From Clostridiales bacterium (GTDB taxonomy: Bacteria > Bacillota > Clostridia > Christensenellales > Aristaeellaceae): a stretch of 64,000 nucleotides of DNA. A program made the position numbers and the translations under genes. Of this stretch, positions 1 through 3,499 are shown in pieces (position 1 is the first letter of the stretch; each line of letters starts with the position of its first letter). The notes under the pieces are model-generated. The model searched no databases, had not been told where the DNA came from, and saw only the letters and a list, made by a program, of their open reading frames with translations. The stretch spans positions 1 through 64,000 of the forward strand of contig SVGN01000005.1 of the NCBI GenBank assembly GCA_015056315.1, in the 5' to 3' direction.

Positions 1-180
1 CGTAAACTGCAGGGGGGACGCCCCCTCCAGCATGGCAGCGGTGGTCTGATAATCAAACAGCCCCATCACATTCAGCGGGCCGTTGGGCATAAAGTACAGC
101 AGCAGATCGCCGCCCAGCCAGCACAGCAGGTGTCCGAAAGCGCCGAACAGAAACAGCTTGGGGGTTACGTTCTTAGTCAT
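1..180 (-). CDS. Predicted integral membrane protein, partial (C-terminus lies outside the window)
   Basis: Reverse strand reads MTKNVTPKLFLFGAFGHLLCWLGGDLLLYFMPNGPLNVMGLFDYQTT...; start codon overlaps the stop of the 173..835 gene and GGAGG lies upstream. Confidence 0.7.
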   Translation of the reverse strand, partial: MTKNVTPKLFLFGAFGHLLCWLGGDLLLYFMPNGPLNVMGLFDYQTTAAMLEGASPLQFT

Positions 181-835
181 GGTGGGGTTCCTCCTTACTC
201 GCATTGCTCCTGCTGCCCACATACCAGTAATCGCAGCTGTCCGCACCCGCAGAAATGGTATGGTTGCGCAGCAGTTTGGCGTTCATCAGCGCAGCCATGG
301 CGTGGTCAAGCTCGCACAGATGGGGCATAAAGTCCATGTAGCCGTGCTTCTTGGCAAAGTCCACCAGCGGGCAGCCTACCAGATGGAAGGAGCAGCCCTC
401 GGTGTAGCCCTCCGGGTTGATGACCACGCCCCAGGTGTTGTTCCATTTGCCGTTTTGCTTGTTCTCGTTGGCTTTCTTCGCATAGGGGATGTAGATGCGG
501 TACATCAGCTTCGCCATCCATGGTTTGTTAAAATCAAAGAGCTTCTTCAGGAAGCCGAGCTTCTCCGTCATCCATCCGGTTACCTCAAGGAACATCTCTC
601 TGGTAACGCGCCTGCCCGTGGCTTCGTAGAAGGCGAAGAAGGTCATGGCCATATCCAGATTGCTTGCCAGCAGGTTCTTCCTGCCGCCGATGGAGGGTGT
701 TTCCTTGCGGAAGCCGTCGTAGAGGAGATCGGCTTTGTTCAGCAGCGCCTTTTCCTCGCCGGGGAAGTATTTCTGTGCGCAGCGTTTCAGCAGTTTGCGG
801 TAGCTGCGGGGGATCGTGCAGGTTTTCATGATCAT
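173..835 (-). CDS. L-2-amino-thiazoline-4-carboxylic acid hydrolase-like protein
   Basis: ORF MIMKTCTIPRSYRKLLKRCAQKYFPGEEKALLNKADLLYDGF...; family-like C-terminal pattern; overlaps the upstream gene by 4 nt. Confidence 0.65.
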   Translation of the reverse strand: MIMKTCTIPRSYRKLLKRCAQKYFPGEEKALLNKADLLYDGFRKETPSIGGRKNLLASNLDMAMTFFAFYEATGRRVTREMFLEVTGWMTEKLGFLKKLFDFNKPWMAKLMYRIYIPYAKKANENKQNGKWNNTWGVVINPEGYTEGCSFHLVGCPLVDFAKKHGYMDFMPHLCELDHAMAALMNAKLLRNHTISAGADSCDYWYVGSRSNASKEEPHHD

Positions 836-1314
836 TCTCCATCCTTTCCTTTGGCTTGCTTGGCTGCAGCCTCCAGCAGCCGCACCCACTTGCGCTGCCG
901 ATGGGCGTAAAACAGCTTTGCCCACAGGCACACGAAGGGCGTTTTCCATCCTGCCCCGATCTCCACCTCATCCGTATACCGGGTATGGCTGCTGTCGATC
1001 CTCTCCAGCCGGATGGTGTGGTTCCACACCGGCACATAGGGGTTGGATTCCTCTGTGTATACGATGCCGTCAGCCCTGTCAAAGCGTTGTACCCGGATGG
1101 TATGGATGCCCAGCGGCAGCAGCCCGAACAGGCGGAACCGGAACCGGTACACCGCACCCGGCTGCCAGTTCAGATCTCCGCTGCCATCCATCGGTCGGAA
1201 GGTGGCATAGGGGCTGGCGATGTGCTGCAGCGTGCTGAGCTTTGTGAGCTTTGTCCATATGGTTTCCGCATCCGCAGGGAAGACGGAGGTTCGTACCACC
1301 GGCTGATGTTTCAT
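832..1314 (-). CDS. SRPBCC (START-like) family protein
   Basis: MKHQPVVRTSVFPADAETIWTKLTKLSTLQHIASPYATF...; AAAGGAG 7 nt before ATG at 1314. Confidence 0.65.
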   Translation of the reverse strand: MKHQPVVRTSVFPADAETIWTKLTKLSTLQHIASPYATFRPMDGSGDLNWQPGAVYRFRFRLFGLLPLGIHTIRVQRFDRADGIVYTEESNPYVPVWNHTIRLERIDSSHTRYTDEVEIGAGWKTPFVCLWAKLFYAHRQRKWVRLLEAAAKQAKGKDGE

Positions 1315-1350
1315 GGTTTGGCTCCTTTCATCGATCCGCATCTAAGCAAC

Positions 1351-1387
1351 AAAAAACCCGGACATGGCGCTGAATGCCATGCCCGGG
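1351..1387 (-). terminator. Intrinsic terminator, probably the expression platform of the upstream riboswitch
   Basis: Reverse strand CCCGGGCATGGC-ATTCAGC-GCCATGTCCGGG followed by TTTTTT. Confidence 0.8.
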
Positions 1388-1432
1388 TGATGATACGAAC
1401 ACATTTCGACCCACGCATAGCCATTACAGCTG

Positions 1433-1520
1433 TACGATGAGTCTCGCAATTTGAAGCAAGCCAGGCCGGAGCCAGTATGTTGACTTGCTACGCCATTGGC
1501 GCTCGCTACTCCCTCACGGA
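1433..1520 (-). ncRNA. yybP-ykoY family (Mn2+) riboswitch aptamer
   Basis: Reverse strand GAGGGAGTAGCGAGCGCCAATGGCGTAGCAAGTCAACATACTGGCTCCGGCCTGGCTTGCTTCAAATTGCGAGACTC has the GGGAGUAGC, UCAACAUACU, CCUGGCU and GCGAGAC blocks I associate with this class, plus GAG/CUC closing pairs. Confidence 0.8.
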
Positions 1521-1532
1521 ATGTACGTTGTC

Positions 1533-1562
1533 AGTTTACCAAATGGGGGAAGAGGTTGTCAA
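1533..1562 (-). promoter_or_regulatory. sigma-A type promoter driving the riboswitch
   Basis: Reverse strand TTGACA - 18 nt - TAAACT, just upstream of the aptamer. Confidence 0.65.
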
Positions 1563-1589: not shown

Positions 1590-1739
1590 TCAAAAGCGGT
1601 AGCGGATGCATAGCCCGTCGAAGCGGGTCTCGCCGCAGGTGATGCATCCGGGCAAGTCGGGGCAGTAAGCAACAAAGCCGCCCTCATTCGTGTCGGCTAC
1701 GATCTCCATGCGGTAAGGCAAAGCCAGATATTCTTCAAG
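1590..1739 (-). pseudogene. HicB-type antitoxin N-terminal remnant
   Basis: Reverse strand reads LEEYLALPYRMEIVADTNEGGFVAYCPDLPGCITCGETRFDGLCIRYRF*; HicB-like through GCITCGET, then stops; in-frame stop six codons upstream and no start before the core. Confidence 0.6.
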
Positions 1740-2121: not shown

Positions 2122-2389
2122 GGTGATCCCCTCGTTTCGTTTGTGATGAGTTCAGTATAGCGGAGCGGGGGAAGGATTGCAAGCAATGAATGTGGGGAGC
2201 GGTGGTTCGTCGTTTGATGGATTGGCAGGATTTGGCGGTGGGGCTGGCGAAACAGAATAGACAGCGATATTGTGATAACAGGCAAGAGGGATGATAAACC
2301 GGTAACGGATTTAACAAACGCCTTTTGGACATTGCAAATGTCAATGAAGAATATCGGTTTACGGTTTGTCATCGCAAGGAGGTTTAAGG

Positions 2390-3499
2390 ATGAAAGACAA
2401 AGACAAATATCGCGGTTGCCTTATAGGTGGTGCTGTTGGCGATGCACTTGGATATGCAGTAGAGTTTGTTGAAGACAGCCATATTTTTCAACAGTATGGT
2501 GAACGAGGAATAACAGAGTATTCGCTGGTAAATGGTGTTGCACAGATTTCCGATGATACTCAAATGACTCTGTTTACTGCTAATGGCTTGCTTCTCGGAA
2601 CTACACGAGGAATGATACGCGGTATCATGGGTACATATCCTTCATACATTGCTTTATGCTATAAAGATTGGTTGAAAACGCAAACAGCGGATGAGTTCGG
2701 ATTTGAGAAACCGGAATATTCATGGCTCAACAATGTACCGGAAATGAATCATAGCCGTGCACCGGGATGCACTTGCATCAGCTATCTCATGCACGATAAT
2801 TTGGGATCAACCACCGATCCGAGAAACGATAGTAAGGGATGTGGTGGCGTAATGAGAGTTGCGCCCATTGGTTTGTATTTTGAGGGCAAGCGGTACACGC
2901 CTGATCAGATTGACATGATCGGAGCAGAGGCAGCAGCATTGACGCATGGACATGAGTTAGGCTACATTCCTGCCGCAATGCTCGTACACATCATCCACAT
3001 TCTATCCCATTCGGAAAATGCAACAGTTTTAGATGCTGTGAATGACGCTAAGGAATCGATTGTTCGCCTCTTCCCTAAAGCAGAACACCTAAGAGAAATG
3101 GTTGATCTGACAAACAAAGCCATACAGCTTGCTACCGAGGATGATATTGATGAGTTTGATGCAATTCGCGAGCTTGGGCAAGGATGGGTAGCTGAGGAAA
3201 CGCTGGCTATCGCAATTTACTGTTCTCTGAAATATACGAACGACTTTGAAAAGGCAATGATAGCTTCGGTAAATCACAGTGGAGACAGCGATTCTACCGG
3301 TGCAGTTACCGGAAACATACTTGGAGCGTACTTGGGATTGAAAGCAATACCAGAAAAGTTTCTGACTAACTTGGAACTCAGAGAAACCATCCTTGAGATT
3401 GCGGATGATCTGTTTAACGACTGCAAGATTTCTGAATACGGCAGCTATCGTGACGATGTGTGGGAGCGAAAGTACATATATCATACTTATCCGAATTAA
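2390..3499 (+). CDS. ADP-ribosylglycohydrolase (DraG/ARH) family protein
   Basis: GCLIGGAVGDALGYAVEF, ISDDTQMTLFTA and NHSGDSDSTGAVTGNILGA motifs; GCAAGGAGG before ATG at 2390. Confidence 0.9.
   Translation: MKDKDKYRGCLIGGAVGDALGYAVEFVEDSHIFQQYGERGITEYSLVNGVAQISDDTQMTLFTANGLLLGTTRGMIRGIMGTYPSYIALCYKDWLKTQTADEFGFEKPEYSWLNNVPEMNHSRAPGCTCISYLMHDNLGSTTDPRNDSKGCGGVMRVAPIGLYFEGKRYTPDQIDMIGAEAAALTHGHELGYIPAAMLVHIIHILSHSENATVLDAVNDAKESIVRLFPKAEHLREMVDLTNKAIQLATEDDIDEFDAIRELGQGWVAEETLAIAIYCSLKYTNDFEKAMIASVNHSGDSDSTGAVTGNILGAYLGLKAIPEKFLTNLELRETILEIADDLFNDCKISEYGSYRDDVWERKYIYHTYPN

Follow-up and report, generated by a model that had tools for sequence, protein, structure and literature searches.

An Mn2+-class (yybP-ykoY) riboswitch that very probably controls an SRPBCC/ATC_hydrolase-like/DUF6796 operon in a Clostridiales bacterium

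Within the initial 1.6 kb of the window, i.e. the whole 64,000-nucleotide stretch of DNA analyzed here, the minus strand carries a promoter-like box followed by an RNA leader, an intrinsic terminator and three closely spaced genes. This leader is very probably a transcriptional Mn2+ ON-riboswitch of the yybP-ykoY class that drives an SRPBCC/ATC_hydrolase-like/DUF6796 operon. The riboswitch reading is based on sequence, fold, covariation, conservation and mutually exclusive pairings, and membership of the class together with an mntP-linked twin in the same genome points to Mn2+ as the ligand. The yybP-ykoY class usually controls Mn exporters, TerC proteins and P-type ATPases, whereas the target in the window is not a transporter. 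The riboswitch makes high Mn a testable cue for three protein families that have no established role in Mn biology.

Leader RNA and expression platform

The promoter, aptamer and terminator that the initial annotation had placed in series before the SRPBCC, ATC_hydrolase-like and membrane-protein genes were all found on the minus strand (Table 1). Two promoter-like motifs were seen in the scanned region versus 0.5 expected from shuffles, and the TTGACA box and TG-extended -10 region are retained in the corresponding leaders of genomes G195, G116 and G192.

Table 1. Coordinates of the leader elements and genes in the window
Feature	Position	Strand	Basis
Sigma-70-type promoter, TTGACA-18-TAAACT, TG before -10	1533-1562	-	motif scan
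Mn2+ (yybP-ykoY) aptamer: P1.1, P1.2, P2, P3.1, P3.2, loops L1 and L3	1434-1519	-	covariance models
L3, AACATACT	1474-1481	-	sequence compared with residues in PMC6754395
Antiterminator/terminator platform, overall	1351-1443	-	
Anti-P1.1 hairpin, P1.1 3' strand GACTCA (1443-1438) pairing with TGGGTC	1408-1443	-	MFE fold
Antiterminator 5' arm GCTATGCGTGGGT, pairing with 1388-1376 (ACCCGGGCATGGC)	1409-1421	-	fold with P1.1 held
Intrinsic terminator, 13-bp stem and T-run	1351-1388	-	motif scan, kept in relatives
Gene 1, putative SRPBCC/START-fold protein, 160 aa, first in operon	832-1314	-	AlphaFold2 (pLDDT 90.6), Foldseek
Gene 2, ATC_hydrolase family (PF14196), 218 aa	173-829	-	profile match
Gene 3, 5' part of DUF6796 multi-helix membrane protein	1-180	-	completed from relative

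To identify the aptamer, a covariance model (R2) was used that had been built from aptamers aligned from other genera only, with zero sequences of the window genus. Its sole hit in the 64 kb (82.7 bits, E 3.1e-19) lies at 1519-1434 of the minus strand and spans all 91 model positions, and a further model, R1, scored the window aptamer at 91.2 bits. Of 23 pairs, 19 were altered on both sides, which was matched by 0 of 500 shuffles, and slid structures failed; the structure was drawn from the same sequences, so that the pairing percentage is biased towards it, while the two-sided changes are independent of that bias. The leader also folded better than 199 of 200 shuffles. As judged from the R2 model and the covariation, the consensus helices and loops of the RF00080 class are present, and the window copy shares with that class the L1 sequences GGGAGTAG and GCGAGAC, an L3 with the Mn-contacting A, the P1.1 switch helix, terminator control and an mntP-linked twin. 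In the aptamer of Xanthomonas oryzae, A10 of L1 is extruded, and A48 of L3 (ACA48UACU) is invariant and contacts Mn (PMC6754395). Both residues have counterparts in the window, A1510 in L1 and A1478 in L3, and the window shares its entire L3 sequence with the solved X. oryzae Mn2+ aptamer and with the mntP twin.

The initial annotation had assigned this RNA to the Mn2+ class and had set a search with RF00080 beforehand as a refuting test. A scan of the whole window against Rfam gave nothing for RF00080 at its gathering score (45 bits, which is a detection cut-off and not a structural feature), and with a lowered threshold only a partial 35-nt match of 16.3 bits was obtained. When 200 genomes of the order were searched with RF00080, sub-threshold matches were found in 23, many of them before mntP homologues, and matches above the threshold in 0 of 200; six leaders that were rescanned, among them leaders of mntP, P-type ATPase and CaCA genes, gave no RF00080 hit. 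Taken literally, the preset standard would count the negative scan of the window as a refutation, but because the cut-off equally misses the mntP-linked copies in the order, that scan is not decisive, and it was dropped as such a test. The assignment to the class therefore stands on the R2 score, the covariation, the L1 and L3 residues and the mntP-linked twin. On these sequence-derived grounds, the window RNA is a genuine, well-formed member of the known Mn2+ riboswitch class that would bind Mn2+ and that scores, like all the copies found in the order, below the standard Rfam threshold. At this threshold, Mn riboswitches throughout the order go undetected (L152-L284); RF00080 may need new seeds or a lower cut-off, and regulon surveys of these bacteria consequently miss much Mn control.

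In agreement with the transcription-terminator type of element that had been proposed, the aptamer is followed by an antiterminator/terminator platform, in which the anti-P1.1 hairpin, the antiterminator and the terminator are mutually exclusive structures. The anti-P1.1 duplex (-10.6 kcal/mol) is only moderately above chance in the window leader, with 3.5% of shuffles as good, and in the leaders of G195, G116, G192 and G423 6-9% of shuffles were as good. The antiterminator duplex has -20.2 kcal/mol, and 0 of 200 shuffled spacers were as good. In the leader of genome G144 the terminator sequence is different, and A-U takes the place of a G-C pair in the antiterminator (GCTATACGTGGGT with ACCCAAGTATGGC; pairing by eye). 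The terminator stem (1388-1356) reaches -25.5 kcal/mol, and its 5' arm, 1388-1376, is common to terminator and antiterminator; since 1.0 terminator was expected by chance in the scan, the evidence for it is its conservation in relatives and not the count. An RBS and an ATG lie immediately 3' of the terminator.

The pairings, the class membership and the mntP-linked twin of the same genome suggest that the platform is a three-hairpin ON design. In such a design, the 3' strand of P1.1 would pair with TGGGTC when Mn2+ is absent, the antiterminator arm would be occupied and the terminator would form. When Mn2+ is present, the docked aptamer would hold P1.1 and leave strand 1421-1409 free to pair with the 5' arm of the terminator, and transcription would then continue into the operon. 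In the folds, the full-length RNA prefers the terminator with or without P1.1 held, and because it does so even with P1.1 held, the switch must be kinetic, i.e. decided during transcription. The arrangement differs from that of L. lactis, where the P1.1 strand is part of the terminator itself (PMC11087558), in having three hairpins and a separate antiterminator.

Targets of the riboswitch in related genomes

The R1 model detected the element in 139 of the 301 genomes of the family, and the first operon could be assigned behind 129 leaders, the window included, the unresolved rest being weaker hits and contig ends; in these counts, members of one genus cannot be taken as independent. Of the 129 targets, 121 are membrane transporters, the majority from Mn-exporter families: MntP (80), P-type cation ATPases (26), CaCA antiporters (11), CitMHS-type transporters (2), GDT1 (1) and a Na/Pi cotransporter-type protein (1). 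Close relatives of the window element thus sit before Mn-exporter genes of the MntP, P-type ATPase, CaCA and GDT1 families. In the window's own genome (G000), a second copy (L002, contig C81) precedes mntP, whose product matches PF02659 with 125 bits, and a third precedes a P-type ATPase gene. The aptamer segment of the mntP-linked copy is 84% identical to that of the window and has the same L1, L3, anti-P1.1 pairing and terminator element; the two differ in the sequence of the terminator and in the target, which is the MntP exporter in the twin. Mn-type riboswitches lie before a Na/Pi-cotransporter-like gene (L245) and before genes for CitMHS-type transporters (L277 and L278), neither of which is known to be among the Mn exporter families.

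All eight non-transporter operons, found in five genera, hold a PF14196 gene. Seven of the 129 leaders precede operons with SRPBCC and DUF6796 genes in four genera and two gene orders: SRPBCC/ATC_hydrolase/DUF6796 in g1 (G000, G085 and G192), g25 (G195 and G423) and g31 (G116), and ATC-DUF6796-SRPBCC in g13 (G144). The leader is therefore conserved upstream of the same operon in other genera, and in a further genome of g1 (G403) it lies at a contig end. The ATC and DUF6796 proteins of g25 and g31 share only some 18 and 24% identity with their counterparts in the window genus, so the architecture has been kept while its members differ. The eighth operon, behind one leader of g16 (G060), consists of genes for an alpha/beta hydrolase, an ATC_hydrolase and another alpha/beta hydrolase, without DUF6796. 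Because the leader and the operon of G060 are differently made and the other seven leaders look homologous, we count at least two recruitments by the riboswitch. Taken together, the link between riboswitch and atypical operon is not accidental, being conserved in seven genomes of four genera plus a differently composed eighth in a fifth genus, and the common denominator of the non-transporter targets is the ATC_hydrolase-like gene.

Two features of individual loci were also recorded. A frameshift interrupts the ATC_hydrolase gene behind the G192 riboswitch (L114:2431-3050); it either marks a real pseudogene or is an assembly error. In G195, a tandem pair of TPP riboswitches (67 and 68 bits) lies just downstream of the Mn-riboswitch operon and before thiamine genes (L113:3435-3689).

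These comparisons bear on three other explanations of the leader. That no riboswitch exists, and that the likeness to the class motifs arose by chance, would fit the empty Rfam scan of the window at curated cut-offs, but its probability is practically negligible given the E value with the independent model, the completeness of all helices, the strong covariation and the occurrence of such elements in 139 of the 301 genomes of the family, where the genes behind them are overwhelmingly for transporters from Mn-exporter families; the R2 result already refutes this explanation unless R2 itself is spurious. It is very unlikely that the leader is decayed or a chance neighbor, i.e. a relic aptamer beside an operon that it does not regulate. 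The presence of the operon without the riboswitch in other genera would be expected in that case, but promoter, aptamer, antiterminator and terminator are intact and conserved across genera, the RBS and ATG follow directly after the terminator, and the link is kept in two gene orders as well as in the separate G060 operon.

An aptamer of the same class whose specificity has moved to another divalent ion would explain the odd genes, and specialists have anticipated variants of shifted specificity (PMC7266159). The L3 sequence is altered in the copies of G116, G192 and G144 (ACATCCT, ACACCCT), which would suit such a shift. We nevertheless consider it improbable and have set aside the L3 changes as a sign of altered specificity: the window L3 equals those of the mntP-linked twin and of X. 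oryzae, the discriminator A is retained in every copy of the operon's leader, and the L3 positions that vary here vary upstream of mntP too (rows beginning with CAGCA, where the search pattern had caught a motif further upstream, were disregarded in this comparison).

Operon proteins and their possible role

The modeled fold alone assigns the product of gene 1 to a putative SRPBCC/START helix-grip protein. Its Foldseek matches, a cytokinin-binding protein, ZhuI and PYL receptors (E about 1e-7, TM about 0.6-0.75), are hydrophobic-ligand binders. A Pfam search of this protein returned no family, and among 19 relatives one touches PF10604 at E 0.1. The product of gene 2 matches PF14196 with 70.5 bits (cut-off 28.1) over most of the domain and has the invariant Cys set of that family, from which it would differ in being under Mn control. 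Residues C153, C172, D175 and C199 are invariant in an alignment of 16 divergent members, and this Cys3/Asp set is a plausible candidate metal site. PF14196 is related to V4R sensor domains via three conserved Cys (PMC5847659). The family name ATC_hydrolase is no evidence of substrate. Sequence searches of the PDB found no relative of the ATC and SRPBCC proteins.

Gene 3 is cut at the start of the window. The proposed extension of the contig to the left was impossible, the window starting at base 1 of contig C5; the remainder of the gene was found at positions 1-651 of contig C60 of the same genome. Both contigs begin inside the DUF6796 gene, which spans the assembly break, and they probably adjoin each other in the genome. 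Gene 3 is complete in the sister genome G085, where it ends the operon and is followed by a convergent gene for an HMA-domain protein. The complete G085 protein matches PF20599 (DUF6796) with 64.9 bits (cut-off 26.9), and the truncated piece in the window scores 15.6 bits. The protein is predicted by AlphaFold2 to be helical (pLDDT 90.4); H109 and N176 are invariant and C112 nearly so, and the family alignment holds no invariant acidic residue. A fold search of the PDB gave nothing significant and no transporter match, and no mention of DUF6796 was found in the papers searched. In agreement with the initial view that no known Mn exporter is encoded in the operon, Pfam scans and a structure search gave, for any of the three proteins, no match to MntP, P-type ATPase, GDT1, CaCA or TerC.

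The genes of the operon probably belong to the manganese-excess response, in which their products would be made at high Mn alongside the MntP and P-type ATPase of the genome, whose genes have their own Mn riboswitches. We tentatively regard the operon as a non-transport arm of the Mn-excess regulon centered on the ATC-like protein. The Cys3/Asp protein would bind or act on a small molecule, with the SRPBCC protein as a hydrophobic-ligand partner and DUF6796 as a membrane partner. More generally, it is possible that V4R-related, Cys3/Asp ATC_hydrolase proteins and their SRPBCC/DUF6796 or alpha/beta-hydrolase partners form an unrecognized non-transport branch of the Mn-excess response, recruited at least twice by Mn2+ riboswitches, which might, e.g., detoxify or repair an Mn-affected metabolite or lipid. 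PF14196 may already have been listed as a target in the class-founding gene lists of 2015.

With the riboswitch assignment unchanged, the Mn role could instead reside in DUF6796 as an unrecognized exporter of Mn2+ or another metal, the soluble proteins being accessory. Almost every other target in the family is a membrane transporter, usually from an Mn-exporter family, and a helical membrane protein with an invariant H109 and N176 and a nearly invariant C112 would suit such a function. We consider it unlikely, because the G060 operon has no DUF6796, the family lacks an invariant acidic residue, no transporter fold was matched, and ATC and DUF6796 pairs also occur behind LytTR regulators without a riboswitch. 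For the same reasons, and having no solved relative of DUF6796, we retain only in part the initial suggestion of an atypical operon with an unrecognized metal role: the link is indeed atypical and conserved, but the emphasis on the membrane protein is not supported.

In many genomes of the family, SRPBCC, ATC and DUF6796 genes are found together but lack the riboswitch, so Mn is not the sole cue of this gene set. At three loci (L112:6970-9175, L133:2390-4633 and L134:467-2790, the last in the window's own genome), genes for a LytTR regulator, a membrane protein, an ATC_hydrolase and DUF6796 stand in a row. The membrane protein, which we take to be DUF3021-like, had no Pfam match. These operons share with the window the adjacent ATC and DUF6796 families, and they differ from it in having the LytTR regulator at the head and neither riboswitch nor SRPBCC gene. 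The riboswitch-free sets and the LytTR contexts therefore indicate a reusable module under several regulators, for which Mn would be one cue in the window's clade.

Small HMA-like proteins are encoded directly upstream of ATC_hydrolase genes at two loci (L042:2504-3463 and L046:2295-2858) and could be another metal link of the ATC family; with two neighbors only, both just under the Pfam cut-off, this link was kept as a lead. In the window, a short remnant with similarity to the beginning of a HicB-like antitoxin (about 1590-1735, minus strand; PF15919, 16.8 bits, below cut-off) is placed between a gene for a small membrane protein and the riboswitch promoter, and a gene of the ADP-ribosylglycohydrolase family (2366-3499, plus strand; PF03747, 215.6 bits) is divergent from the region.
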